NCBI GenBank assembly: GCA_016871175.1 | Contig: VFZL01000028.1 | Location: 1-53,986, forward strand | Reading direction: 5' to 3' | DNA: 53,986 nucleotides | From: Acidimicrobiia bacterium | Lineage (GTDB): Bacteria; Acidobacteriota; Vicinamibacteria; Vicinamibacterales; CAVVIG01 | Shown: positions 6,331 to 41,623 of the stretch, in pieces | Position numbering within the stretch: position 1 is the stretch's first letter | Layout of the letters: every line of letters starts with the position of its first letter | Notes under the pieces: model-generated | The model's input: the letters and a program-made list of their open reading frames with translations, nothing else | What the model was told of the DNA's origin: nothing | Database searches by the model: none | Translations under genes and position numbers: made by a program

Positions 6331-6697
6331 CGGGTGTCCCTTGCGATCCGATTGCGAAGGCCGAGGCTCCGTCCCTCGAGAGGAGTACGCCGCCCGCGCC
6401 CGTTCACTCAACACGTCGGCCGACACATCAGCTCGCATCTCACTCACCCTGCCGCGTGTCGGCCACGGGCGGGAGAGAGGCCTCGAGCGCGCACGACATC
6501 TTTCGTTGGGGACTCCAAGCGCGCAACCCACGCGCGGTAGCCAGTATATCGAACGAGGGTTCGCCCACAACCGCACAAAACGCCCAGTTTTCCGCTCAGC
6601 CGCGGATGGTCATTGCACAGCGTTTCACTCATTCGGGCGCTCGGGATCTGCGGGCGCGAGCTGCCCCGCCGATTCCTGAGCCGGACGTCTGTCAGAG
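6331..6697. other. divergent intergenic region (367 bp)
   Basis: No protein-like frame is visible. It holds the candidate minus-strand promoter at 6543-6570 and a small inverted repeat CGAAC-GAGG-GTTCG at about 6550-6563, inside the promoter spacer. Both the PilZ-regulator operon and the hybrid kinase are read outward from here. Confidence 0.6.
6543..6570 (-). promoter_or_regulatory. sigma70-like promoter of the PilZ-regulator/bactofilin operon
   Basis: Minus strand: TTGTGG (6570-6565), 16-bp spacer, TATACT (6548-6543). The spacer contains the inverted repeat CGAAC/GTTCG, which could be an operator. The leader to the ATG at 6330 would be about 200 nt. Confidence 0.4.
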
Positions 6698-8461
6698 ATG
6701 CCGTTCTTGCTGGACACTCTCGCCACACCAATGCTCGGGCTGCTGGGCGCCTCATGGCTGGGGGGCATGTTCGCCGGTTGGTGGCTCCGTACCGGCCCGC
6801 CGGGCGGAAGCGCCCGAACTGGGCCGGTATCGATGCCGTCCCCGGACCTGGTCCAGAACAGACCAGGCGAACGAACCGTCTCCACCTTCGGCGAGGGTGT
6901 CGCGACCGGGTTTTCCCCGCTGGCGTCCTCGCTGCGCGATCTGCTGGCTGCCGCGACGCAACACACGGACGAACTCATTAGCATCGCCACGCCGGACGGG
7001 GCGATCCTGTGGGCGAATCCGGCGTATTGCGGCGCTTTGGGCTACGATTTGACCGAAATCCGATGACTACGCGCGTCGGAGACCCTCGCCGAGCAGTCCC
7101 GGACGTCGCTGATCGAAATCGAGGCGGCCGCCCGTTCGGAGGGGGTCTGGCGTGGCACGGTCGTCCGTCGGCGTCGGGATGGCTCCACGCTGCTGTCCGC
7201 CGGGTCGGTGCTCGCGCTGCGCGACGCCCAGGGGACCCCGTCGCATTTCGTTGCGGTCGAACGCGACGTGACGCAGGAAGCGCAGCTGCGCGAGCAGCTC
7301 GTACATAGCGAGCGCTTGGCGGCCGTGGGTCAGCTCGTGTCGGGTGTGGCGCACGAGCTCAACAACCCGCTCCAATCGATCATCGGGTTCACCGAGCTGC
7401 TCATCGACGCCGAGCGCCGCGAACAGCCGCGCTCGGACCTGGAGCAAGTACGCGCCGAGGCGCACCGAGCCGCGAAGATCGTTCGAAACTTGCTCGCGTT
7501 CGTTCGTCGGTCGGCGGTCGAGCGCGCGCCCGTGTCGCTGAACGCGCTGGTCGAGGCGACGGTGGCGCTACGGAAGTACGAGTTCTCGATATCGGGGGTC
7601 ACGATCGAAGAGCGCTACGCCGACGATCTCGCACCCGTGGTGGTGAACCGCGAAGAGATCCAACAGGTGCTGCTCAATCTGATCTTGAACGCCGAACAGG
7701 CGATGAAGCCGACAGGGAGTCCAGGCCAAATCAGCCTCCGGACCTGGGCGACCGCCCAGGGCGTTACTGTGGAGGTCGCCGACAACGGACCGGGCGTGCC
7801 GGCCACCATCGCTCGTCGCGTCTTCGAGCCGTTCTATTCGACCAAGGGCGTGGGCGAAGGTACCGGTCTCGGTCTGGCGATTGCGCTCGGCATCGCCGAG
7901 GCCCATGGCGGTACGCTGGAGCTCGTCACCAGACCCGAACCGGGCGCTTGCTTCCGTCTCACACTGCCGCCGGCCAGCGAGGCGGCCACAGCCCCACAAA
8001 CGACCGGCGACGCCGCCCCCAGATGGACGGCGATTCCGGGTCGGCGCGCGCTGGTCGCCGACGATGAACCTGCGTTGCGCAAGCTGCTGCACCGCCTCCT
8101 GACGCGGCGTGGGTTCGCGGTCGATATCGCCGAGGACGGCCTTCTCGCCTCGAACATGGTCGAGCTCAATCGTTACGACGTCATCCTCTGCGACGTGCAG
8201 ATGCCGCGCATGGCAGGCACCCAGCTCTTCGATCGTCTCCGTCGCCGCCAGCCCCATCTAGCCTCCGCGTTCGCGCTCATCAGCGGCGACACGCTCGATC
8301 CTTCGGTGCAGGCCTTCGCAGAGACCGCGCAGATCCCGCTGCTCGCCAAACCGTTTGGAGCGAAGAACCTGGACCTGGTGCTCGACGAGGTCCTGGCGCG
8401 CCGCATGAAAAGCCTGAAGGACCCCGCCTCGCAACAGTCCGACATCCGCGCGACAGCTTGA
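6698..8461 (+). pseudogene. hybrid histidine kinase (PAS-HisKA-HATPase-REC) with in-frame TGA
   Basis: One reading frame of 588 codons is interrupted only by TGA at 7064-7066 (codon 123). In order it holds one N-terminal hydrophobic segment, a PAS domain split by the TGA (DELISIATPDGAILWANPAYCGALGYDLTEIR, stop, then LRASETLAEQSRTSLIE... FVAVERDVTQEA), HisKA with phospho-acceptor VAHELNNPLQ, an N box LILNAEQAM, G1 VADNGPGV, G2 GEGTGLGLAIA, and a C-terminal receiver with ALVADDEP, CDVQMP and LLAKPF. All kinase and receiver residues are intact, and the frame does not shift. The stop is therefore a recent nonsense change or a sequence error. A downstream start near 7208 could still yield a soluble kinase-receiver. 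It is divergent from the PilZ regulator/bactofilin operon. Confidence 0.85.
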
Positions 8462-8568
8462 TTGGGGGGCTCGCCTCCGGTCCGCCTTCGCGTGGTGCGC
8501 CCCGGTGCGGCACGCCGACGGGGTCGTGCGGGCGCGCAGCGATCATTGAATGGCCGGCGCGTGACGTG

Positions 8569-9637
8569 CTACCGAACGAAACGGAGGCGCTCGACGGGCC
8601 GCGGCGGGGCGAGGGTCGGGTTGTAGCCGAGCTGAATCACGTCGAAGTCGCTCGCGGTGAGCGTTCGGAACGCGGGGTTCAGCACGGCGTTGTCCCAGCG
8701 TGTGTCATACGTGCCGGTGATGTACATATCCGACCCGTTGTCAGCGACGATGAGTCCGTACCGCTGCATCGCCCGAAATATCCGCCGGACGTCGGCTGAG
8801 TATGACGAGAGGTCGTTGCTGGCCTTGAGACGCAGCCGCGCACCCAAGGGCAGCGCCCAGGAGGTGCTGCCCGCCCGATGCGACGCGGGGTAGACGTACC
8901 CGTTGGTTGCTCGGACCGTTACGCGGAACGCGTGCTCGATGTTCTCCGGACCCGTTGGCCTCGTCATAGCGCACGAGCCCCGGCAAGATCGCCAGGCCCG
9001 CGGCGTCGGCCGACGTCCAGCCCTCGGGCCGCCGATCCGATCGCGTCAGGTCGAAGAATGCCCCGGACCCGGCCTGCCACGTGATCCCATCGAAGTGCAC
9101 GTTGAACAGCTCATACAGCGTGCGGTCATCCCGATTGACGATGATGAGGTGGCGATCGGCTTGGTTCCGGAGATCGACGTTGTCCGGTTGTCCGCCCTCG
9201 ATCCAGTGCGGCTGCGTCTTGGCCTCTTCAGGGATCGGATAGAAGGGATAACTCTGCCCGGTTGCGTGATTGACGCCATCGCTCTCCTGGTGATAGCGGA
9301 ACTGAACCGTTTGCCGCGACACGGCGTTATCGACCACGACGTACGGCATGCCGTAGGTTTCGACGCTGCCGGGCGATACGTCGCCGCCGAAGTCTGGATG
9401 CAAGCGGCGTGCGGCACCGATGAACGCGATGTAGTTCGCCGAATTCGGATCGATCGGCGTGTTCGAGATGTCCAGGTTCCACCAGCTGGAACGCGGAAAC
9501 AGTGGGAGCGGAGTCGGCAGCGGTCCGCCTATCACGGCGAGCGCCGAGGCCGTGGTCGCGAGAGCGATTGCCAAGCCCACCGCCAGTATCGCGGTTGGCA
9601 GAGGCGGCAGATTCCTGGATATAGTTGACAAGTGCAT
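8569..9637 (-). pseudogene. exported protein of unknown function, frameshifted
   Basis: A signal peptide (residues about 12-35: PTAILAVGLAIALATTASAL) is followed by a soluble domain: PRSSWWNLDISNTPIDPNSA, NYIAFIGAARRLHPDFGG, YGMPYVVVD, HLIIVNRDDRTLYELFNVHF, AAGLAILPGLVRYDEA. The frame is then lost near 8950 and resumes one base shifted as GPENIEHAFRVTVRATNGYVYPASH, continuing to DMYITGTYDTRWDN and the stop at 8569. Removing one T from GGGTCCGG on the minus strand restores YDEANGPENIEHA. I do not recognise a named family; its length, polar surface and export signal suggest a periplasmic or outer-surface enzyme or binding protein. An inverted repeat GGCCAA/TTGGCC lies at 9662-9678, about 25 bp before the start. 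Confidence 0.75.
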
Positions 9638-9982
9638 CGGCTGAACTCGACGCAAGCTTTGGGCCAACCGAATTGGCCAGCCGGGACGGGTGAGCCGCTC
9701 GCTTTGATGTGTCTCGCTGTCCAACGCTAGGGCAGGAACATACAGAGTTGGCGGCGTTGACCCGCGCGGCTAGGCGGAAGGCTCTGAATGCATCGCCCTT
9801 CCACCGTTCCCTGGTCGTCGCGGTGTCTCGCCACGCCCGCGCGCCAAAGACGATGTCGCGACAACGGGACGACCAGCGAACGGGCCCTGCACAAGTGCGC
9901 GCATGGCCATGGTGATCGGCCAGAAGCGCGTCAGGAACGGGTTCTCCACCCGCACGTGTCTTCGCCACCTAAGCTAGCAAGG
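9638..9982. other. intergenic region (345 bp)
   Basis: It lies between the end of dut and the start of the exported protein, both on the minus strand. I see no convincing gene. The only structure is the inverted repeat GGCCAA-CCGAA-TTGGCC at 9662-9678, a possible operator for the exported protein gene. Confidence 0.5.
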
Positions 9983-10426
9983 TTAGGCCCCCGTGTGGCC
10001 GAAGCCGCCGGCGTCTCGCTCGGTGAGGGGGAGCGCGTCGACCTCCTCCCACTGGACGCGCGCGACGGGCGCCACCACAAGTTGCGCGATGCGCATACCA
10101 CGCTCAACGAGGAACGGCGAGGTGCCGTGGTTGATGATCAGAACCTGGACCTCACCGCGGTAGTCGCTGTCTATCGTGCCCGGCGCGTTGAGTACGGTCA
10201 CGCCATGCTTAGCCGCCAAGCCCGAGCGTGGCCGTACTTGCGCCTCGAAGCCCACGGGCAACGCCACCGCGAAGCCGCAAGGGATCCGCACGAACCGACC
10301 CGGCTCGACAACGACTGGAGCGTCCACGGCTGCCGGCAAGTCCATGCCCGCTGAGCCCGTCGTCACGTACGCGGGCAGCGGCATGCCCGTGGTCAGTCGT
10401 CGAATCGCTACTCGGACGCTCTGCAT
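9983..10426 (-). CDS. dut: dUTP diphosphatase
   Basis: 147 aa, the normal length of trimeric dUTPases. All five motifs are visible: AGMDLPAA (I), [11 protein letters not shown] (II), [17 protein letters not shown] (III, with the catalytic Asp), RIAQLVV (IV) and AGGFGHTG (V, the glycine-rich C-terminal arm). It hydrolyses dUTP to dUMP and pyrophosphate, keeping uracil out of DNA and feeding dTMP synthesis. It lies 39 bp downstream of phoD on the same strand, and the pairing looks coincidental. Confidence 0.95.
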
Positions 10427-10465
10427 CGAGGCATCGTACTTCAGCCGCTCATCGGAGCCTCGGTC

Positions 10466-12028
10466 TCAGGCCCGTTCCGCGCCAGGGCGTCCGGACTCGA
10501 TGACGAAGCGGGCGCGCGTGCCGCACGGTGCGCCGGGAGTGGTCACTCCGCTTACGACCCGGTAGTCGGCTTGCAGCCGTGCCGGTGTGACATGGCAGAC
10601 CACATAGCCGCGCTGTTCGTTGTAGAAGCGGACGAACGGGTTGTCGCTCAGCACCGCCTCCATCAGGCGGGGAACATCCTGTCCATCGCCACCGGTCGTC
10701 AGCGATGTGCCGACGAGCTCGGTCGCGACCGTTGGGCCGTCAGACGTTGCGCGCACGTCATTCACCCAATTGCTGTGGACGTCGCCGGTCAGCACAACGG
10801 GGTTCGCGCCCGGTCGTGACGCGAGACATTCCACGAGCCGCTTCCGCGAGACCTCGTAGCCCGCCCAATGATCCATGGTAAAGCGGTCGCGGCCGTTCTG
10901 TCGACGATTGACCTTCGCCAGCATGACCTGCTGCGGAATCACGTTCCAGCGAGCGGTCGATGCGCGGAAGCCGCCGAACAGCCACGCCTCCTGCTGCGGG
11001 CCGAGCAGCGTAGCCCGTGGATCGTGCATCGCCTCGCACGGCCAGGTGGTATTGTCGCCGCAGGGTTGAGGCGTTCGGTATTGGCGCGTGTCGAGCACGA
11101 AGAACGACGCGAGCTGCCCGTACCGGAAGCCTCGATAGACGCGCGTTTCATAAGCAGGTACCGCGGTCGGTTTCGACGCACGCCGGAGCGGCATGTGCTC
11201 GTAGTACGCGCGGTAGGCCGCGGCACGTCGCTGGACGAAGCCCTCGACTGGTTCACCGCCGGCTGGGCTCGTGCCCGCATAGTTGTCGGCCACTTCGTGG
11301 TCGTCCCACGTGACGATCCACGGACACGCGGCATGAGCCGCCTGGAGATCGGGATCCGCCTTGCACTGCGCGTAGCGGTTCCGATAGTCGTCGAGTGTGA
11401 CCACTTCGGCCGATGGTCCCGCGTGGCGCCGCACTCGGCCGTCACCCGGAGGGTATTCGTAGATGTAGTCGCCCAAGTGGAACACGAGCGACAGTTCTTC
11501 TTCCGACAGGTGCCGGAGCGCCGTGAAGTGGCCGTGCTCGAAGTGCTGGCACGAGGCGAACGCGAACCTGAGTTGCGTGCTTCCCCCTGCGGCCAAGGGA
11601 AGCGTGCGCGCCCGCCCGATCGGGCTTGCCGCCTCCTCTGCGACGAAGCGATACCAGTACCACCGATCCGGCTCCAGGCCAGTCAGCTCGACGTGGATCG
11701 CATGCGCCCACTCCGGCGTCGCCAGCGTCGAGCCCCGGCGAACGATCTGGCGCAGTGCGTCGTCAGTCGCAACCTCCCAGCGCACACGGACGGGGGCGGA
11801 TGGCATCCCACCGCCGTGCAGCGGATCCGGTGCTAGCCGTGTCCAAAGCACGAAGCCGTCAGACGAGGGGTCGCCGGACGCCACGCCAAGCGTGAAGGGA
11901 TTGCGGCCGTCTCGCAGGCGAAGTGGTGTACGCGACTGGGCGAGCGATGACTGTGGCCCGATTAATGGAGCCGCCGCCGAGCCGAGCGCCAGTGCGCTGA
12001 GGAAATGACGGCGCGAGAGGGGAAGCAT
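10466..12028 (-). CDS. phoD: PhoD-family alkaline phosphatase, Tat-exported
   Basis: 520 aa. It starts MLPLSRRHFLSALALGSAAA, a twin-arginine signal, as expected for a metalloenzyme folded before export. The N-terminal beta-sandwich domain (GVASGDPSSDGFVLWTRLAP) is followed by the metallophosphatase core: FASCQHFEHGHF, HLGDYIYEYPP, TWDDHEVADNYAG and VLTGDVHSNWVND supply the metal ligands. PhoD enzymes are Ca/Fe-dependent phosphomonoesterases or diesterases that release phosphate outside the cytoplasm. I chose the internal ATG at 12028 because it places RR at the correct distance. It is divergent from the DUF411 gene. Confidence 0.92.
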   Translation of the reverse strand: MLPLSRRHFLSALALGSAAAPLIGPQSSLAQSRTPLRLRDGRNPFTLGVASGDPSSDGFVLWTRLAPDPLHGGGMPSAPVRVRWEVATDDALRQIVRRGSTLATPEWAHAIHVELTGLEPDRWYWYRFVAEEAASPIGRARTLPLAAGGSTQLRFAFASCQHFEHGHFTALRHLSEEELSLVFHLGDYIYEYPPGDGRVRRHAGPSAEVVTLDDYRNRYAQCKADPDLQAAHAACPWIVTWDDHEVADNYAGTSPAGGEPVEGFVQRRAAAYRAYYEHMPLRRASKPTAVPAYETRVYRGFRYGQLASFFVLDTRQYRTPQPCGDNTTWPCEAMHDPRATLLGPQQEAWLFGGFRASTARWNVIPQQVMLAKVNRRQNGRDRFTMDHWAGYEVSRKRLVECLASRPGANPVVLTGDVHSNWVNDVRATSDGPTVATELVGTSLTTGGDGQDVPRLMEAVLSDNPFVRFYNEQRGYVVCHVTPARLQADYRVVSGVTTPGAPCGTRARFVIESGRPGAERA

Positions 12029-32011: not shown

Positions 32012-32019
32012 GGGTGTTC

Positions 32020-33336
32020 ATGATCGGGATGTCTCGCCGTCCCAACTTGGTTGTCGCGCGCGGCGTGACGTGGACGTGGCTCTTCGCTGTCGGGGCGTTC
32101 GGTTGGCCTGTAGACACCCGCGCGCAGGCGCCGACCGAATCCGCCGCACCCACCGCCTCCGACGTGCGCGATCGAGCCATCGCCGAGCGGTTCGCGCCCA
32201 TCTTTCATCAGGGGATGGTCGCATCGCGCTTCAGTTTTATCACCAATTTCGACTTCGACGGCGATTGGGTGGGAGACAACAACTAGGCGAACGCCGCTGA
32301 TGCGACGCACCGCCAGAAGGCGTATGTCTACTATGCCGTCAGCGAAACGCCCTCGCACTATTTCGTGCACTACGCCGCGTTTCACCCCCGCGACTACAAA
32401 GGTGGCGAGCTGACCGGCGCGATGTTCAGCCAGGCCGTCCGTCGCGGGGCAAGAGCCTCGACGCGCGTTGCGCCGACAGATCTTGCGAACGATGTCGTGC
32501 TCGCACACGAGAACGACCTCGAAGGCTGTCTGGTCGTCGCGCGCAAGAATGGGCCTCGCCTCGAAGATGCGGAGGTCGAGGTCGTCGAAACACTGGCGCA
32601 CAACAGGTACCTCAAGTATCAGCCGTCCGCCACGCTGGCGAAGGGGATCGGGACGGTTCGTCTCGACGGACAGCATCCACTGATCTACATCGAGCCCAAG
32701 GGGCACGGCATGGAGGCCTTCGCCGACCAGCCGAAGACTCCGGCAGAGGGCGCTGGCACGACCGTGGGCACGGCTGGCCCGGGCGGTCGCGGCGACCCGG
32801 CGGCTGGCGTCAACGGCTCGGACGGCTCGACCCAGACGGCGGGTGGCCTGGTCGGCCGCGTCGCCGGACTCGTGTCGCGCGTCGAGGCGGCGAGGAAGCT
32901 GGTGAACAACGAGAAGCCCGAGACGATCCGCGTCTATCGGTTCACCGGAACCGCCGAGGATCCAGAGAGCACCGAGGGAGACGTCGGCTACGACCTGCTG
33001 CCGACCTACAGCACGATGTGGGCACGTGCTCGCACTGCGCCGAACGAGACGTACGGTGAGGTCCAGGATTACGGCGAGCGCGAGGTTCGTACCGCGGGTG
33101 CCCCGAAGGCTGGCACCTTCATGCTGGGTGGGCTCGGGTCCTCGTTCCGTGGCGTTCAAGGTGCCGAGAACAAAGCGCGTCCTCCGTGGGGCTGGTTCGA
33201 TATGACCGAGCGGGACCGCCCGCTGGGCGAGTGGTTCCTCGATCCGGCCGCCGCGGTGCGTCGGCATTTCCCGACGCTCGACATGGACACCGGGTACCTG
33301 CGCCAGCCGTTCTTGGGCATCACACGAACGCCGTAG
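32020..33336 (+). pseudogene. exported protein of unknown function with in-frame TAG
   Basis: 439 codons in one frame with TAG at 32284-32286 (codon 89). A signal peptide (LVVARGVTWTWLFAVGAFGW) leads into RDRAIAERFAPIFHQGM and NFDFDGDWVGDNN, stop, then ANAADATHRQKAYVYYAVSETPSHYFVHYAAFHPRDYKGG, a strongly protein-like continuation. The probable original residue is Trp (TGG to TAG). The C-terminal half has WFDMTERDRPLGEWFLDPA. I do not recognise the family. It follows the OPT gene by 8 bp, so it is likely co-transcribed. An in-frame start at about 32365 gives a 323-aa remnant without a signal. Confidence 0.75.
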
Positions 33337-33512
33337 CCACTCGGTTGACGCCTCGGCTCAGCTCGGCTCGGCTCGCCCACGTCGATCACGCGCTGGGGCA
33401 GCGCTCGTCCTTCGCGGCATCCGCGGCTGGCCTGTTCGTGACGCGGTGCGCGTGGCGGCAGGGCCACGTTGACCCGCTCCGGATTGAGCGATATCGTGCG
33501 AAGAGAGTGGCG

Positions 33513-34508
33513 ATGTCGAGCGGTGCGAGATTCGGAGGGGGACGGGCGATCACCGAGCGAGTCGTCCGCAGTCTTCTCGTCACGATCGTCGCGCTCTCCG
33601 GCTGTGGCACCCCGCCGGCGCCGCCCACGCCCGTCGATCTGACCATCGGGACGGTGTTCGCGGGCAGCGCTTGGACCGCGGTGGGGAAGTCCCTTGCGGA
33701 CGTGTATTCGGCCAAGCTCCCGGGCGTGCGCGCCACGGCGACGACGAACGAGGATCTCGAGAGCACCGCCGATTCACTCCAGCGCGGAGACGTGCAGCTG
33801 GCGATTGAGGATGTCGAGACCGCGTACGTCGCCTTCAGCCGTGGAACCCCGCAGATGGCCGAACCGCATCGCGACCTGCGTGCGATGGCCGTTCTGTTCT
33901 CCATCGCCGTTCACGTTGTCGCCCGCACCACCGCCGGCATCGAAGGCATCGGCGACTTGAAAGGCAAGCGAGTCGGCATGGGGGCGCCCGGCAGTCCGAC
34001 GCATCGGGCCGCCGCCCTGATTCTGGAGGGCCACGGCGTCGGCGTGAAGCATATCACACCCGTCCCGCTGACCGGCGACGCGGCTGCGGCTGCCATTCGG
34101 GAAGGCACACTCGATGCGGCGTTCATCTACGTGTCGTTTCAGAATCCGGTCGTCACCGCGCTGACCGGCGCCGATGATGTCCGATTGGTGCCCATCCAAC
34201 GATTGTCGCTGGGTCACATCCAGGAAGGTCACCACTTCCTCAAGTCGACGACGATTCCTGGAGGCACGTACAAGAACCAAGAGGAAGACGTTTTGACGGT
34301 CGGCATGGACGTCGTGCTCCTCTGTCGGCAATCGGTGCCCGACGCGCTCGTCTACGACCTCACGAAGACGCTGTTCGACTCGCTGCCAGTGCTGCGGCAG
34401 GCCCATCCGTCGGCAGCCGGCATCGACCCCGATCGCGGCCCGACCTCTGCCATCCCTCTCCATCCGGGCGCGGCTCGCTACTATCGCGAGCGCGAGCTGC
34501 TCCGGTAG
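33513..34508 (+). CDS. TAXI-family TRAP solute-binding lipoprotein
   Basis: 331 aa. An N-terminal lipoprotein signal ends LSGC, predicted lipidated Cys near residue 31. The body is a TAXI (TRAP-associated extracytoplasmic immunogenic) binding fold: VDLTIGTVFAGSAWTAVGKSLADVYS, ATTNEDLESTADSLQRGDVQLAIEDVETAYVAF, IGDLKGKRVGMGAPGSPTHRAAA, IREGTLDAAFIYVSFQNP and a C-terminal IPLHPGAARYYRERELLR. Such proteins bind dicarboxylates, glutamate or similar acids for TRAP permeases, but no TRAP permease gene follows. A sensor kinase begins 10 bp later, so it more likely feeds a signal to that kinase. The GTG at 33507 is an alternative start. Confidence 0.85.
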   Translation: MSSGARFGGGRAITERVVRSLLVTIVALSGCGTPPAPPTPVDLTIGTVFAGSAWTAVGKSLADVYSAKLPGVRATATTNEDLESTADSLQRGDVQLAIEDVETAYVAFSRGTPQMAEPHRDLRAMAVLFSIAVHVVARTTAGIEGIGDLKGKRVGMGAPGSPTHRAAALILEGHGVGVKHITPVPLTGDAAAAAIREGTLDAAFIYVSFQNPVVTALTGADDVRLVPIQRLSLGHIQEGHHFLKSTTIPGGTYKNQEEDVLTVGMDVVLLCRQSVPDALVYDLTKTLFDSLPVLRQAHPSAAGIDPDRGPTSAIPLHPGAARYYRERELLR

Positions 34509-34517
34509 CCGTCAGCC

Positions 34518-36191
34518 ATGCGCGTGGGAGCTCGCGGCGCTCTGCTCTTCGCGGCGGGTCTCGCTGCCGCGACCGGCCTGACCTTCTGGCTCGGCCTGCG
34601 TGCGACGCGCGAATGGCAGGGCAGCACGGTCGAAGCCGCCGAGCGCCGCGGCAACGAGGTCGTGACGCTTCTGGCGGCGGCGCTGGAGCGCGACATGAAG
34701 GGCGGGCACGTCTCCGTGCTCCTCAAGGTCCAAGAGCGCGAGCTGGCGCAAGTGGCGCCGTACGAGTTGGCAGACCGCTTCGCGCGGGGGTTTGCGCGGT
34801 TCCCGTATCTGGATTCCTTCTTCGTCTGGACGGCGGGACCCGGTGACGGTTCGACCTACGCGTTCAACCGTGCCGACCGCCGTCCTGCGTGGGATCGCGA
34901 CACCGTGGCCGACGTGCCTTATCCGGTGGTCATTCGACAGCATCCGGAGGCGCTCCGGAGCACGGTCCTTCTGGCGCGCGCGCAGGGCCGTCTCGGTGTG
35001 CGCTTCACGCTGTTCGAGGTGTCCATCGAGGGTGTGCGGTACCAGGTCATCGCACACCTGCTCTACGACGGCGTCGGGGAGACCGCCACCCTGAAGTCCG
35101 CGGTTGGCTTCCTCGTCAACCTCGAGTGGGTTGAGCGTTACTACTTCTCGGACGTGCTCACACAGGTGCAGCAGATCATCGACGACCCGTCGCTGAGTCT
35201 GCAAGTGGTGAACAACACAGGAGCCGTGGTCGCGTCGGTCGGCCCCCCTCTCGCCCAGGAGGCGACGTCTGCAGGGGCGACGCACGTGCGGCACTTCCCG
35301 CTGGCGTTCGCGGAGCAGACCTTGTCAGATGGGCCGCAGCGCTTCCGCGACCCGACCTGGATGACACGTGTTGGCGTCGGGAACGAGACGACCCGGCTGG
35401 CGGCCACCCGCGGTGGGACGCGGACCGTGCTGTTGCTCGGCCTCGGCACGCTCGTCACCATTGTCGGACTCGGGGTCACCGTCCGGGCCGCGCGGCGGTC
35501 CGCGGAGCTCGCCGAGGTGCAGTCGGAATTCGTGTCCGCCGTGAGTCACGAGATGAAAACGCCCTTGTCGCTCATCAAGCTCGCGAGCGATACGTTGGCC
35601 CACGGACGTTACGCGTCTCCCGAGGCCATCGGCGAGTACGGGCAGATGATCATGAAGGAGTCCCAGCATCTCGCGCGACTCATCGACAACGTCCTGTGCT
35701 ACGCGCGGATCACCGACACGACGTCCGAGTACGACCTCGAGGTCGTCGACGTCTCGGAAGTGGCGCAGGAGTCTCTGGATCGGTTCGCGCCGCAGCTCCG
35801 GGAGCTCGGCTTCGAGGTGCAGCTGCAGGTGCCGGCCGAGCCGGCGCTGGTCCGTGCCGACGCGTTGATGCTCGGGCAGGTGTTCGATAATCTGGTCGAC
35901 AATGCGCTGAAGTACGCCAAGGACGGCCGATGGGTCGGTGTCACGGTCGCGAGCGACGGTGACACGGTGCGCATCGAGGTGGCCGACCGAGGGCCTGGCG
36001 TGCCGCCCGACGAACGGGGCCCCATCTTCGAAAAGTTCTATCGACGCAAGGGGACACGCCTTCGGGGTGCGGGGCTCGGGCTCGCCATCGTGCGACGGAT
36101 CGTGGAGGACCATCGCGGGACCGTGGACGTGATCGGCCAGGTGGGGCAGGGCTCGACATTCGTCGTCAGAGTGCCAAGGGCCTCCGCATGA
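34518..36191 (+). CDS. membrane sensor histidine kinase
   Basis: 557 aa. The first helix (residues 9-27) and second helix (about 302-323, VLLLGLGTLVTIVGLGVTV) enclose a roughly 270-aa extracytoplasmic sensor domain. Then HisKA with FVSAVSHEMKTPLSLIKLAS, N box DNLVDNALKYA, G1 VADRGPGVPPDERG, F box FEKFYRR and G2 LRGAGLGLAIVRRIV: complete and canonical, no HAMP seen. It lies between a TAXI lipoprotein gene (10 bp upstream) and an OmpR regulator (4-bp ATGA overlap). The natural reading is a kinase whose periplasmic domain senses the loaded binding protein, as in TctE/BctE-type systems. Confidence 0.93.
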   Translation: MRVGARGALLFAAGLAAATGLTFWLGLRATREWQGSTVEAAERRGNEVVTLLAAALERDMKGGHVSVLLKVQERELAQVAPYELADRFARGFARFPYLDSFFVWTAGPGDGSTYAFNRADRRPAWDRDTVADVPYPVVIRQHPEALRSTVLLARAQGRLGVRFTLFEVSIEGVRYQVIAHLLYDGVGETATLKSAVGFLVNLEWVERYYFSDVLTQVQQIIDDPSLSLQVVNNTGAVVASVGPPLAQEATSAGATHVRHFPLAFAEQTLSDGPQRFRDPTWMTRVGVGNETTRLAATRGGTRTVLLLGLGTLVTIVGLGVTVRAARRSAELAEVQSEFVSAVSHEMKTPLSLIKLASDTLAHGRYASPEAIGEYGQMIMKESQHLARLIDNVLCYARITDTTSEYDLEVVDVSEVAQESLDRFAPQLRELGFEVQLQVPAEPALVRADALMLGQVFDNLVDNALKYAKDGRWVGVTVASDGDTVRIEVADRGPGVPPDERGPIFEKFYRRKGTRLRGAGLGLAIVRRIVEDHRGTVDVIGQVGQGSTFVVRVPRASA

Positions 36192-36871
36192 AGAAGCGGA
36201 TTCTCATTGTCGAGGACGATCAGGCGCTGGCGCGCGTCTTGGCCGACAACCTGCGATTCTCCGGGTACGATGTCGCTCACCTCGATGATGGCGCTGAAGT
36301 CGTGACGAAGGTGCGCACGTTCGCGCCCGACCTGGTGCTGCTCGACGTCATGTTGCCCAACAAGGACGGTTTCAGTCTGCTCGGGCTCGTTCGGCAAGGC
36401 GGCCGAACGCCGGTCATCATGCTGACGGCGCGCGATCAGAAGGCCGACAAGCTCGAAGGCCTCGAGCGCGGGGCCGACGACTACGTCACCAAGCCGTTCG
36501 ACTTCGAGGAGCTGCAGGCCCGGATTCGCGCTGTGCTACGGCGGGCTCGGAAGATGGTCGTGCGCATTTCGCTCGGCGACGCCGAGATCGATTTCGAGGC
36601 CTTCAAGGCAACGCGGCACGGGAAGGACCTGAAGCTGTCGCGACGGGAGTTCGACCTCTTGCTCTACCTGGCCGAGCGAGAGGGCGCTGTCGTGCCCAGA
36701 AGCGAGCTGCTCCGCGAGGTCTGGGGGTTTCCTGAAGAGCCCGCCACGCGCGCGGTGGACTACGCGATTCGGCGTCTTCGTATGAAGATAGAATCGGATT
36801 CGCGTCAACCGCGCCACATCCACACGGTCCACGGCGATGGGTACTCTCTGACGCTCACGCAGCCAGGGTAG
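36188..36871 (+). CDS. OmpR-family response regulator
   Basis: 227 aa. Receiver domain: ILIVEDDQ, phospho-acceptor in DLVLLDVMLPNKDGF, VIMLTARDQKADKLEGLERGADDYVTKPFDFEEL. Winged-helix domain (about 130-225): LKLSRREFDLLLYLAEREGAVVPRSELLREVWGF ... TRAVDYAIRRLRMKIE ... IHTVHGDGYSL. The overlapping kinase gene upstream is its partner. A flavin amine oxidase gene starts 4 bp after the stop and is probably both co-transcribed and part of the response. Confidence 0.95.
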   Translation: MKKRILIVEDDQALARVLADNLRFSGYDVAHLDDGAEVVTKVRTFAPDLVLLDVMLPNKDGFSLLGLVRQGGRTPVIMLTARDQKADKLEGLERGADDYVTKPFDFEELQARIRAVLRRARKMVVRISLGDAEIDFEAFKATRHGKDLKLSRREFDLLLYLAEREGAVVPRSELLREVWGFPEEPATRAVDYAIRRLRMKIESDSRQPRHIHTVHGDGYSLTLTQPG

Positions 36872-36875
36872 ACAT

Positions 36876-38420
36876 GTGATCACACGACGCGGTTTCATCG
36901 AGCGCGTGGCGGCGGCAGGTGGAGTGTCGCTGGCCTATGACGCCATGATCGGTCTCGGCCTGCTGGAGGCGACACCCACGGCGCCGTTCGACCTGCAGGG
37001 CCAGGTCAAGGGCGTACGGGTGGTCGTCATCGGGGCGGGGCTGGCCGGGCTCACGGTCGCCTACGAGCTCGGCAAGCACGGCTACCGTTGCACGGTTCTC
37101 GAAGCACGAAGCCGACCGGGCGGGCGGGTCCATACGATTCGACGCGGCACGGTCAGCGAAGAGGAGGGGCCGTGGCCGATTCAGGTCTGCCAGTTCGACG
37201 AAGGGCTCTACTTCAACTGCGGTCCGATGCGGATTGCCAATCACCATCGCACGACGCTCGACTACTGCCGCGAGCTCAACGTCCCGCTCGAAGTCTTCGC
37301 CGTCTCAACGGATAGCCAGTGGATCTACCAAACCCAACAACAGGGCCTCATGGGCCGCCGCGTGCGCCTTCGCGAGGTCCGCACCGACCTCGACGGCTAC
37401 CTCGCCGAGCTACTCAGTAAGTCCGTGTCCGCTGGCGCGCTCGACGAGTCGCTCACGAAGGACGATGCGGAGCGGTTGCTGGCGCACCTCAAGACGCTGG
37501 GCCGCCTCGACGACCGCGGGACCTATCGCGGGCAGGAGATGCGAGGGCCTGCCGTCGAGGGGCCCCAGGGTGAGCTGCGGTACACGCCGCTGCCCCTGGG
37601 TGAGCTGCTTGGCTCGAAGGCCGGCGAGTACGTGCATCAGGGCTACGAGTATCAACCCACCATGCTCCAGATCGCCGGCGGCAGCGACCGGTTGCCGCAG
37701 GCGCTGGCGGCCCGCCTTGCACGCCGGATCATCTATCGTGCGGCCGCAAAACAGATTCGTCAGCACGAGCACGGGGTGTCGGTGACCTACGCCGATGACG
37801 ACGGGGACGTCCGCACGCTGGAGGCGGACTACGTGGTCTGCGCGATCCCGCTGGTCCTGCTCAAGGACATCGACACCGGCTTCGCGCCGGACTTCAAGGC
37901 GGCGATCGCATCGGTGCCGTACTCCGCCGCGGGCAAGATGGGCCTTCAATTCAAACGGCGGTTCTGGGAAGAGGACGACCAGATCTTCGGTGGCGCCACG
38001 AAGACCGACCAAGACATCGCGCAGATCGTGTATCCCTCACATGGATTCCTCACGCGCAAGGGGATCTTGACGGGCTACTACATTCAGGGGCAGGCGGGGC
38101 GTCCCGTCGGCGACATGTCCCCAGGCGCGCGACTCTCGCTCGCGCTCGAGCAAGGAGCGCGCATTCATCCACAGTATCCAGCCGAGTTCGAAAGCGGCTT
38201 CTCTGTGGCATGGCACCGCGTTCGGTGGAGCCTCGGCTCGTGGTCGGTCACCCCCGCCGACGTGAAGACACGTCTGAGTCAGCCCGATCGGCGGGTGTAT
38301 CTGGCCGGCGACCACTTGAACCTGAACGCGTGGATGCAGGGCGCGTTCGAATCCGCGCGCCACGTTGCAACGGCGATACATGCCCGGGCCATGGCCGGAA
38401 ATGAGGCCAGGCCTTTCTGA
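36876..38420 (+). CDS. flavin monoamine oxidase family protein, Tat signal
   Basis: 514 aa from GTG. It starts MITRRGFIERVAAAGGVSLA, a twin-arginine signal, so the folded flavoprotein is exported. FAD is bound through VVIGAGLAGLTVAYELGKHG, the ARSRPGGRVHT motif and, at the C-terminus, VYLAGDHLNLNAWMQGAFESA. Substrate-domain features fit L-amino-acid/monoamine oxidases, which oxidise amines to imines with H2O2 release. Its place directly after the TAXI-kinase-regulator genes suggests that it oxidises, or signals about, the ligand sensed. The exact substrate is unknown. Confidence 0.9.
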   Translation: MITRRGFIERVAAAGGVSLAYDAMIGLGLLEATPTAPFDLQGQVKGVRVVVIGAGLAGLTVAYELGKHGYRCTVLEARSRPGGRVHTIRRGTVSEEEGPWPIQVCQFDEGLYFNCGPMRIANHHRTTLDYCRELNVPLEVFAVSTDSQWIYQTQQQGLMGRRVRLREVRTDLDGYLAELLSKSVSAGALDESLTKDDAERLLAHLKTLGRLDDRGTYRGQEMRGPAVEGPQGELRYTPLPLGELLGSKAGEYVHQGYEYQPTMLQIAGGSDRLPQALAARLARRIIYRAAAKQIRQHEHGVSVTYADDDGDVRTLEADYVVCAIPLVLLKDIDTGFAPDFKAAIASVPYSAAGKMGLQFKRRFWEEDDQIFGGATKTDQDIAQIVYPSHGFLTRKGILTGYYIQGQAGRPVGDMSPGARLSLALEQGARIHPQYPAEFESGFSVAWHRVRWSLGSWSVTPADVKTRLSQPDRRVYLAGDHLNLNAWMQGAFESARHVATAIHARAMAGNEARPF

Positions 38421-38479: not shown

Positions 38480-39550
38480 CTACTTCTTCGAGAACGGCCC
38501 CACCTCCGGTACCGGCTGCGTGTTCGCGAGCGGACCGAGCTCGGCCGCGACGCCCCGCGCGATGGCGGCGGTCTCGCTGCCGGCCTGGAAACAGGTGAAG
38601 TCGGGTCGATCGCGCCACGCGTAGGGACCGCACAGGCGGACCTTGGCCTTGAGGGCCGCGTCGTGGACGACGTTGATGAGCCGTTCGTAGTCCGGCGAGC
38701 CCTGTGGGTAGCCGGAGAAGTTGCCCAGATCACCGCTTGCGGCGAACACGGCGCTGATGCCTGGTACCTTCGCGATCGCCTCGGCGTTCTTCACGCCCTC
38801 CAGCGTCTCGATCATCAGAATCAAGATGATGTTCTCGTTGGCTGTCTGACGATACCCACCCGGCACGGTGCCCCACATCGCTGGATCGAACGCCTGGCCA
38901 CCCCCATTGCTCCGCCGCCCCAGCGGCGGGAAGTAGGTCCAGTCGCGCGCGGCCATCGCTTCCTCGGCGGTGTCGACCGTCGGCACGACGATGACCAGAG
39001 CGCCAGCGTCGAGCGCATGCTGGATTTCACGTTCGTCGGTGTAGGCGACGCGCGCGCCAGGGACGGCCTTCGCGTGGGGACAGGTGCGCCACATGCGCGC
39101 CACCGCCTGCCAATCGTGCTGGTCATGCTGCATCTCGGTCCAGATGAAGTCGTAGCCGGCATTGGCCATCGCACAGTAGGTGGACGGATCGGTCGACGCA
39201 AACACCGTCCCGCCGGTGACCTTGCCGCCCTGCATCATCTTCAGCTTCACCGGATTCCAGATCCTGGCGCCCGCGGGCGGATTGAAGGCCGGTCCGAACT
39301 TCCAGGTGCTCGGGTTGAAGGGACCCTGGTTCACCGAGCCGCTGAGTGGCGTGTTGATCGCGCCGCTGTCCTTGCCGGCTGGTGCCGCGAGCGGAAAGGA
39401 CTGCTTACCAGCATCCGGGTTGTTCGCATACGGATCCGCGCTCGGCTGAGCTGGTCGCGCAGGCTGTTGTGCGTTCTGCGCTTGACCCGACAGCGTGACC
39501 AATCCCACGGCCAGCATTCCTGCCAGCGCCGCCATCTGCATTCGTCTCAT
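38480..39550 (-). CDS. exported HpcH/HpaI aldolase family protein
   Basis: 356 aa. It begins MRRMQMAALAGMLAVGLVTLSGQAQ, a signal peptide with an AQA-type end, followed by a low-complexity Pro/Ala linker. The barrel domain follows: MQGGKVTGGTVFASTDPSTYCAMANAGYDFIWTEMQHDQHDW, DAGALVIVVPTVDTAEEA, IILILMIETLEGVKNAEAIAKVPGISAVFAASGDLGNFSGY. The metal-binding Glu (IETLEG) and Asp (SGDLGN) match the class II HpcH/HpaI fold that cleaves 2-keto-3-hydroxy acids. Export of such an aldolase is unusual; similar exported proteins occur in Acidobacteriota and have no known role. GGGAGGTC precedes the start at the right distance. Confidence 0.85.
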   Translation of the reverse strand: MRRMQMAALAGMLAVGLVTLSGQAQNAQQPARPAQPSADPYANNPDAGKQSFPLAAPAGKDSGAINTPLSGSVNQGPFNPSTWKFGPAFNPPAGARIWNPVKLKMMQGGKVTGGTVFASTDPSTYCAMANAGYDFIWTEMQHDQHDWQAVARMWRTCPHAKAVPGARVAYTDEREIQHALDAGALVIVVPTVDTAEEAMAARDWTYFPPLGRRSNGGGQAFDPAMWGTVPGGYRQTANENIILILMIETLEGVKNAEAIAKVPGISAVFAASGDLGNFSGYPQGSPDYERLINVVHDAALKAKVRLCGPYAWRDRPDFTCFQAGSETAAIARGVAAELGPLANTQPVPEVGPFSKK

Positions 39551-39647
39551 CGCGACCTCCCTCACAGCACATCGGGGCATTCTACCGCGTCAGTGGGCGG
39601 GGCGGTGGCACGTGCCGTTGCGGTTCGCTCACTGGCGCCCTGCGGGG

Positions 39648-41623
39648 CTACCGGCGACCGAAGATCGAGGCGATGCGGCGGCCGATCGACCGGAAGATGT
39701 TCTGCACGGCACGGGTCGTGGCCTGCTCGAAACTGCCTTTGCGGACAGCGCAGAGCCGCGACGGTACGTCATCGCCGTCCTTGAAGTGCTCCGTGTAGCG
39801 CGGACAGCCGTCGACCGGTTTGAGGTGCGAGACGCGGCAGAGTTCCTCGCCGCGTAGACCCGCCGGAATCTCGAACTCGCGCGCGGGGAAGAGATGCGCT
39901 GTGCGCTTCATGAAGTCGGCCCAGATCGGGAGTGCCACGCGCGCGGCGTAGGCCCCGCGTCCAATGGGCTCGGGGCGATCGCGCCCGACCCACACCCCGA
40001 CGACCACCGAGCTCGAGAATCCGACGAACCACGCATCGCGGTAGTCGTTGGTGGTGCCGGTCTTGCCCCCGACCGGCCCGACGACTCCAAGCGATCGCGC
40101 TGGCGATCCGGTCCCGCCGTCAATCACATTGCGGAGCATCGAGACCATCTGAAACGCCACCTGCTCCGACACGATCCGCTTCCGGTCGACGGGCCGATAG
40201 AACACGAAATCGCCGTCCGCATCGAACACATTGATGACCCCGCGTGGCTTCACGACCTCGCCGCCGCCCGGAAACACCGCGTACGCCGCGGTGAGATCGA
40301 GGGGCGAGACCAGGCCGCTCCCCAGTGCGAGTGAGGCGACGTCGGGCAGATCCCGAAGTCCCGCATCGGTTGCCAGTCGCAGCACCTGGCGCGTGCCGAC
40401 GCGCTGCTGGAGTGCCACTGCGGCGGCGTTGTTCGACTCCGCGAGCGCCTCACGCAATGTGATCGCCGTCGGGTCGACCCCCTCCTCGTGCGACACGTTC
40501 CGAGGCTTCCACTCCGGATTGTCTGGCGCTCCGACCTCATCGAGATGATCGAGCATACTCACAGGCGAGAGGCCGTGTGCGAGCGCCGCCGCGTAGACGA
40601 TCGGCTTGAAGGCGGAGCCTGGCTGGCGACGGCTGCGTGTCGCGCGGTTGAACGTGCTGTGTGTGCAGTCCGCGCCGCCTGGACGTCGTCTCTCGCGTAC
40701 CGCCGAAGGCCACGCGCAATCGCCTGTTCGGCGGCGTCTTGCGCTGCGCGGTTGAACGACGTCTGCACCTGCCAGTCGGGTGGGTGATCGCCGCTAAACT
40801 GGTTGCGAAATTGCTGGCGCAGCCAGCCTTTCGCCCATCCCGCCGTGGGATCCTGTGGCGACCGGCACCTCTGAATCCTTGGCCGCTCCACTCGCGCCGC
40901 CTGCTCTTGGGCGGCCGTGATATAGCCCTGTTCACGCATCAACCCCAGCACGAGGTGGCTGCGCCGGAGCGCGCCCTCGTAGTTCGACCAGGGCGAGAGC
41001 GTGGAAGGGGCCTTGATGAGGCCGGCGATGAGCGCCACTTCGGCCAATGTGAGCGCCTTCGCTGGCTTCCGAAAAAGGTGCGCCGCCATCGCGTCGACGC
41101 CATACACGCCGGCACTCAGGTAGATGCGAGTGAGGTAGAGCTCGAGGATCTGGTCCTTGGACAGCTGGACCTCGAGCAGCACGGCGATCGACGCCTCCTT
41201 GGCTTTGCGCGCCAAGGTCTTGGTGTTCGACAGGAACAGCGTGCGCGCGAGTTGCTGCGTCAGCGTGCTACCGCCCTCGGATCGGCCGTCGCTGAGACTG
41301 TTGCGCACGATCGCTCGCGCGACCCCGATGGGATCGATGCCCGGATGGAGATAGAAGCGGCGATCCTCGACCGCGACGACGGCATGCTGCAGGTCGGCGG
41401 CGATCTCGAAGAGCGGGACGTCGTGGCGCTGTTCGTCGAGTCTGAACCACGGCCGGCCATCAGCCGCGTAGAACACCGTGTCGCCAACGCCGCGCGTGAG
41501 CCGGTGCACGACGCGAACGTAGCGTGCCATCCACCAGCCCGATATCGCGCTGCCGGCCACCGCGATCGCCACGACGGAGGCCCCGATCCACTCCCACCAG
41601 CGCCGCGGCGCCCGCAACTTCAC
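39648..41623 (-). pseudogene. class A penicillin-binding protein (PBP1A type), broken by a small deletion
   Basis: The N-terminal half (41623 down) has a cytoplasmic stub, one transmembrane helix and a GT51 glycosyltransferase domain with AVVAVEDRRFYLHPG and EGGSTLTQQLARTLF. After RGLRRYARDDVQAA the frame is lost at about 40673-40679. A shifted frame continues FNRATRSRRQPGSAFKPIVYAAALAHGLSP, carrying the catalytic Ser-x-x-Lys of the transpeptidase, then SNN (LAESNNAAAVA) and KTGTT (GGKTGTTNDYRDAW) to 39648. About 15-20 residues expected between QAA and FNRAT (VALDPRTG-like) are missing, and the breakpoint lies in a GGCGGCG repeat. The product would polymerise glycan but not cross-link. Confidence 0.87.

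Follow-up and report, generated by a model that had tools for sequence, protein, structure and literature searches.

A TAXI-family lipoprotein gene linked to a sensor kinase and an OmpR-type regulator, with no neighbouring permease, in an acidobacterial lineage

In the BctC/BctE-BctD system of Bordetella pertussis, a binding protein of the TctC type switches on a kinase, which in turn controls the genes nearby (PMC5812351, PMC9602780), and a survey of 2022 counts about ten characterised cases in which a kinase is activated by a binding protein (PMC9602780). The proximity of such genes is no guarantee that their products interact, since binding of PA4985 to AruS was not seen (PMC11113362). 'Orphan' TRAP binding proteins have been noted, the vast majority of the binding-protein genes being operonic with a permease (PMC12344293). 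No TAXI protein feeding a kinase was found in the titles and abstract openings listed by searches of the open-licence literature, and the word 'kinase' is absent from the main text of two papers on TAXI proteins (PMC12344293, PMC11574862).

We report the analysis of a stretch of 53,986 nucleotides (the window) from contig C28 of a genome (G000) of 4.44 Mb that is 97% complete. A preliminary description had proposed that a TAXI lipoprotein, a sensor kinase, an OmpR-type regulator and an exported amine oxidase are encoded together, the lipoprotein presenting a ligand to the kinase and the regulator inducing the oxidase that degrades this ligand. The features of this part of the window are as follows:

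33469..33497 (+): sigma-70-like promoter, TTGACC-17-TATCGT, 9/12 consensus matches, directly 5' of the TAXI gene
33513..34508 (+): TAXI-family solute-binding lipoprotein (TIGR02122, PF16868, lipobox, model fold match)
34518..36191 (+): sensor histidine kinase with a dCache-like extracytoplasmic sensor at about residues 28-302 and a HisKA/HATPase_c core (Pfam, model, fold matches, motifs)
36188..36871 (+): OmpR/PhoB-type response regulator (Response_reg and Trans_reg_C, Asp53)
36876..38420 (+): exported flavin oxidase, L-amino-acid-oxidase-like (PF01593, match to PDB 2jae)
38480..39580 (-): HpcH/HpaI aldolase-family gene, convergent with the oxidase gene (Pfam; blastn, 81% to the same-genus locus L062)

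The gene families assigned in the preliminary description agree with these domain matches, as does its account of the spacing: the four genes share one strand, with 9 bp between the TAXI and kinase genes, an overlap of 4 bp between kinase and regulator, and 4 bp before the oxidase gene. The search for sigma-70-like promoters returned the single site listed (0.3 expected), and a similar TTGACC...TATCGT, read by eye, stands 5' of the TAXI gene in the same-genus genome. Because a promoter-like site precedes the TAXI gene in both genomes, the transcript probably starts at this gene. The one terminator-like site overlaps the junction of kinase and regulator (2.6 such sites are expected by chance), and in the window genome the oxidase gene is probably carried on the same transcript as the sensor genes.

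Two further stretches of this region may hold interrupted genes. A penicillin-binding-protein-like gene, named by eye, occupies 39648-41623 (-) as two overlapping frames (39648-40562 and 40559-41623); its same-genus counterpart is one frame of 674 residues (L062, 12699-14723), and the split in the window would be a frameshift or an assembly error. Between an OPT-type transporter and the TAXI gene, 32014-33336 (+) likewise holds two frames (32014-32286 and 32365-33336), possibly another broken gene; a Pfam search of the larger frame, 32365-33336, gave no match.

In order to establish which of the genes are kept together, the window genome and 59 relatives (60 genomes in all) were searched separately with the kinase sensor, the TAXI protein and the oxidase, and the locus set also took in named loci from a scan in which each species was represented by a single genome, and two later loci (L144 and L145). 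This gave 35 distinct loci with close homologues of the sensor (E at most ~4e-30), at each of which as many as five called genes to either side were scored with phmmer, many of the neighbourhoods ending early at contig ends. A TAXI gene lies no more than two genes from the kinase in 34/35 loci, and in 31 of the 35 it is directly upstream and on the same strand; elsewhere it is divergent (L108), separated from the kinase by a DUF1850 gene (L109) or placed after the regulator (L072). The counted loci include TAXI fragments at contig ends (L065, L073 and L107) and two TAXI genes that the gene caller had missed and tblastn recovered (L080 and L117), while L144 and L145, added after the TAXI-kinase rule had been stated, both fit it. 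The exception is L115 (3107-5514; contig C101 of G400), where, alone in the clade, no TAXI gene lies near the kinase. Within five genes of the kinase, 27/35 loci have a regulator of the same family, one of them a fragment at a contig end (L109, E 7e-15); in seven of the other eight loci the contig ends after no more than one further gene downstream of the kinase, L123 being the exception. No TRAP permease or DctP gene occurs among the neighbours in view at any of the 35 loci, some of whose contigs end early. At 15 remoter kinase homologues, no TAXI gene was found nearby (0/15). Locus L126 (5833-14804; contig C2 of G243) carries two TAXI-kinase modules on one contig, with a regulator near each.

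The conserved unit is therefore the TAXI lipoprotein, the sensor kinase and the OmpR-type regulator, and to this extent the arrangement given in the preliminary description, a TAXI gene with kinase and regulator genes and no neighbouring permease, holds among the relatives. The order of four genes does not: the oxidase gene stands beside the module at the window alone (1/35 loci) and is missing from the same site in the same-genus genome, and, lack of conservation of that order being a refuting condition set in the preliminary description, a conserved four-gene unit was rejected.

The TAXI-linked kinases occupy one side of the kinase tree with a support of 100/100 (31 rows against 15), where the label was set by similarity, a TAXI gene is adjacent in 30 of the 31 rows, and two kinase fragments (L070 and L080) were left out. 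In the TAXI tree, from which fragments of fewer than 240 residues were omitted (L065, L073, L107 and L123), the kinase-linked rows do not group into a single clade, and the label needs two changes. The distances among TAXI proteins follow those among their kinases (r 0.846 for 26 pairs, with 0/2000 permutations as high), a co-inheritance that is confounded by shared species history. The kinase family was found in 25/149 genomes drawn from the window's order (E at most 1e-50) and in 22/396 drawn from the phylum (E at most 1e-6, the five best candidates of each genome being scored), and 21 of these 22, including the window's, belong to the same order. A wider scan of species, resting on a single peptide pattern, passed 21 loci, 20 of them with Acidobacteriota names and one, L122, named Acidimicrobiia and apparently from the same order. 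The permease-free TAXI-kinase-regulator module is real and restricted to this lineage.

We consider it likely that the lipoprotein, the kinase and the regulator make up a three-component sensor that depends on its binding protein. In this mechanism the TAXI lipoprotein, anchored in the envelope, would close around a small ligand outside the cytoplasm and, once loaded, dock on the dCache-like sensor domain and alter the activity of the kinase; the regulator would then switch nearby genes. The TAXI protein would not here be a transport subunit and, in the window genome, the exported L-amino-acid-oxidase-like enzyme, encoded last in the run of genes, would probably be co-expressed with the sensor. 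As in systems of the BctC/BctE and LuxP/LuxQ kind, the gene for a binding protein is linked to those for a kinase and a regulator. The part of the preliminary description in which the lipoprotein signals to the kinase draws partial support from the conserved, permease-free linkage (34/35 loci), and the part in which the oxidase is the output of the unit is not supported. Counting against a sensor that depends on the TAXI protein are the clade kinase at L115, without a TAXI gene nearby, and the failure of the kinase-linked TAXI rows to form one clade.

The window TAXI protein belongs to its family by a score of 210 bits against TIGR02122 (cut-off 84), and its AlphaFold model matches six solved TAXI entries with Z 31.5-33.6, the next-best match having Z 17.3. 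Its lipobox reads LSGC, and a loose lipobox pattern is present in 24 of the 26 kinase-linked TAXI rows tested. In VcGluP, Y45 and Q93 are the residues that matter most for glutamate, and Gln93 touches the amino group of the ligand (PMC11574862). At the glutamate site, Y45, Q93 and E125 of VcGluP are replaced by W54, D100 and I131 in the window protein; glutamate was rejected as the obvious ligand, as key residues of the site are altered, and D100 may point to a preference for an amino group. Across 28 kinase-linked TAXI rows, nine different residues occur at the position of Q93, which suggests that the TAXI proteins of different loci have different ligands. The pocket residues W54, D100, E102, F129 and Y206 are common to the window and to L062, L063 and L064, position 102 being E in all.

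The hydrophobic stretches of the kinase, placed by eye at about residues 9-27 and 303-322, enclose some 275 residues, close to the periplasmic domain of about 270 residues that had been described, and the catalytic core is complete as claimed, with His344 in SHEMKTP. The catalytic motifs of both kinase and regulator are intact, Asp53 and Lys102 being present in the latter. The region between the stretches was modelled as a single domain (pLDDT 89) and consists of a long N-terminal helix followed by two PAS-like subdomains, as in dCache domains. Its best crystal match is TlpA (9kpj; Z 12.6, rmsd 4.2), and it matches LuxQ with LuxP bound (2hj9) with Z 10.8 and rmsd 4.6. Foldseek gave E values down to 2.6e-08 with TM-scores to the query of only 0.21-0.46 among the 50 rows listed, and the Foldseek and crystal matches include dCache-like domains of chemoreceptors and kinases. 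Pfam matched no sensor domain in the kinase, and a search of PDB sequences with a profile of the sensor found nothing with an E value of 1 or less. Four residues of the sensor (M60, F92, W125 and W204) are present in 31/31 kinases of the TAXI-linked clade and in 0/15 of the remoter homologues.

Domains of the dCache type often bind ligands directly, and the kinase might not need the TAXI protein. The kinase could then sense the ligand within its own dCache-like domain, the TAXI protein buffering or scavenging the ligand without docking, and both the fold of the sensor and the invariant R118, R121 and W125 of the TAXI-linked clade, which could line a pocket, are compatible with this; R118 is also present in 10/15 of the remoter kinases, which have no TAXI gene. 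We nevertheless regard direct sensing as unlikely, for R121 and W125 are scarcely found outside the TAXI-linked clade (31/31 within it against 2/15 and 0/15, respectively, among the remoter kinases), as would be expected of a sensor that depends on the TAXI protein, and the retention of the TAXI gene in 34/35 loci would be left unexplained.

The oxidase begins with TRRGFIE, a twin-arginine-like start when read by eye, and its residues 39-505 align to the L-amino-acid oxidase of PDB 2jae (E 1e-85), the nearest solved structure. The enzyme resembles L-amino-acid oxidases, with a corresponding activity predicted, and these matches do not bear out the 'amine' of its earlier label. Comparison by blastn with L062, from the only same-genus genome found, matches 33612-36857 of the window to 7334-10593 and 38486-39472 to 10707-11696, such that about 1.6 kb of the window stands against about 0.1 kb in L062, the extra segment being the oxidase gene. 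Because the regulator gene at L062 directly adjoins the aldolase gene, which in the window stands on the far side of the oxidase gene, the latter would have been gained in the window genome or lost in the same-genus genome. A recent acquisition judged by composition was rejected: the GC3 of the oxidase gene is an ordinary 0.82 (0.80-0.85 in the other three genes), no sign either way. The nearest homologue in the searched genomes, from another family of the same order, has 59% identity over residues 1-365. The oxidase gene appears to be a local addition that lies outside the conserved module.

Neither a TAXI nor a kinase gene was seen at the eight oxidase-homologue loci viewed (L096, L097, L098, L100, L132, L136, L138 and L139), and at two of these, L136 and L138, an outer-membrane protein gene adjoins the homologue. 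At L097 (3603-5998; contig C75 of G032) the oxidase homologue adjoins a gene of the RidA family, whose role would fit an L-amino-acid oxidase that makes imines.

These results bear on the catabolic unit of four genes, in which the oxidase destroys the ligand that the TAXI protein presents to the kinase. The 4 bp between the regulator and oxidase genes make co-transcription likely in the window genome, and Asp100 in place of Gln93 of VcGluP would suit an amine or an amino acid as ligand, so that such a unit could hold in this one species alongside the three-component sensor. It is a shade less probable than direct sensing, given the single occurrence in 35 loci, the empty same-genus site, the eight homologue loci without the module and the three loci, L062, L063 and L064, that share the W54, D100, E102, F129 and Y206 pocket and have no oxidase gene in view.

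The genome G000 contains one TAXI gene and one DctM match. The latter lies on contig C27, fused to DctQ and adjoining its own DctP gene, for which reason this TRAP permease was rejected as a hidden partner of the TAXI protein; the claim that no TRAP permease gene lies beside the TAXI gene is thereby upheld. The only GltS match lies on a different contig (C6) from the TAXI gene (C28), and no fused DctQM permease lies beside the window TAXI gene, nor is gltS beside or fused to it. Among the 21 genomes with the module, a DctM match is absent in five and a GltS match in 11, and G243, 97% complete and with two modules, has neither. That the TAXI protein serves a TRAP or GltS permease encoded elsewhere, with the kinase a chance neighbour or lone sensor, is the least probable of the alternatives, since what favours it, the fused DctQ-DctM protein and GltS homologue on other contigs and the published TAXI-GltS pairing (PMC12344293), is outweighed by the separate DctP gene, by the module genomes that lack these permeases and by the near-total linkage of the TAXI gene to one kinase clade.

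TRAP-linked TAXI genes are also present in the same order (L088, L094, L131, L133, L137 and L140). The TAXI protein of L088, whose gene precedes DUF1850 and a fused permease, is the sister (100/99) of that of L109, where the order at 6540-9808 is TAXI, DUF1850, kinase and regulator fragment; from the sequences it looks as if the permease had been exchanged for the kinase, or the reverse. We put forward tentatively, as a possibility somewhat short of even, that TAXI proteins of this order moved from TRAP transport into signalling, where they came to serve a single kinase lineage as dedicated subunits for ligand presentation; that lineage would then have duplicated and altered its binding pockets, so that some genomes have several sensors, near differing outer-membrane and periplasmic catabolic genes, with L109 as a surviving trace.

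The genes that the regulators might control may be sought among those beside or near the modules, which encode TonB-type outer-membrane proteins, PQQ dehydrogenases, cytochrome proteins of the DUF1592 or DUF1553 type and gamma-glutamyltranspeptidase. The gene for the last of these adjoins the TAXI-kinase-regulator module at L077 (3747-5552; contig C54 of G046). TonB-type proteins occupy 10/57 direct flanks against ~2.3% expected, a figure that takes the density at its upper bound and assumes 0.9 genes per kb (binomial 6e-07, for loci that are not independent); in the 57, one flank of L126 is counted twice and the two of L109 are its DUF1850 gene and regulator fragment. At the TAXI-less kinases the count is 2/29, and the difference from 10/57 is not significant (Fisher p 0.32). 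The excess of outer-membrane proteins beside the modules is suggestive only.

A TAXI lineage tied to kinases would show a family of transport proteins turned into sensors and would supply several natural sensors with differing pockets. It also calls for caution in annotating kinase-linked TAXI genes as subunits of transporters.

Among the known systems, BctC/BctE is the closest tested precedent and likewise pairs a binding protein of a secondary-transporter family with a kinase; BctC, however, is of the TctC type and serves a transporter encoded beside it, whereas the window protein is a TAXI protein with no transporter gene seen nearby. LuxP/LuxQ likewise has a separate binding protein and a kinase whose sensor is dCache-like (the window sensor matches LuxQ in 2hj9 with Z 10.8), although LuxP is from another binding-protein family than TAXI and LuxQ, a hybrid kinase, acts in a phosphorelay. 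The TAXI-TRAP systems, VcGluP and TtGluBP, have the same binding-protein family and fold (Z 31.5-33.6), from which the window differs in having no fused DctQM permease alongside and in the altered residues of the glutamate site. In the TAXI-GltS system of Bordetella pertussis, the TAXI protein has likewise left TRAP for a new membrane partner, there a symporter and in the window a kinase; BP0403 is elongated and dimeric, whereas the window protein is of conventional length, and conventional-size TAXI genes beside gltS have also been shown (PMC12344293). The combination of a TAXI protein with a dCache-like sensor would be a new version of kinase sensing that depends on a binding protein.
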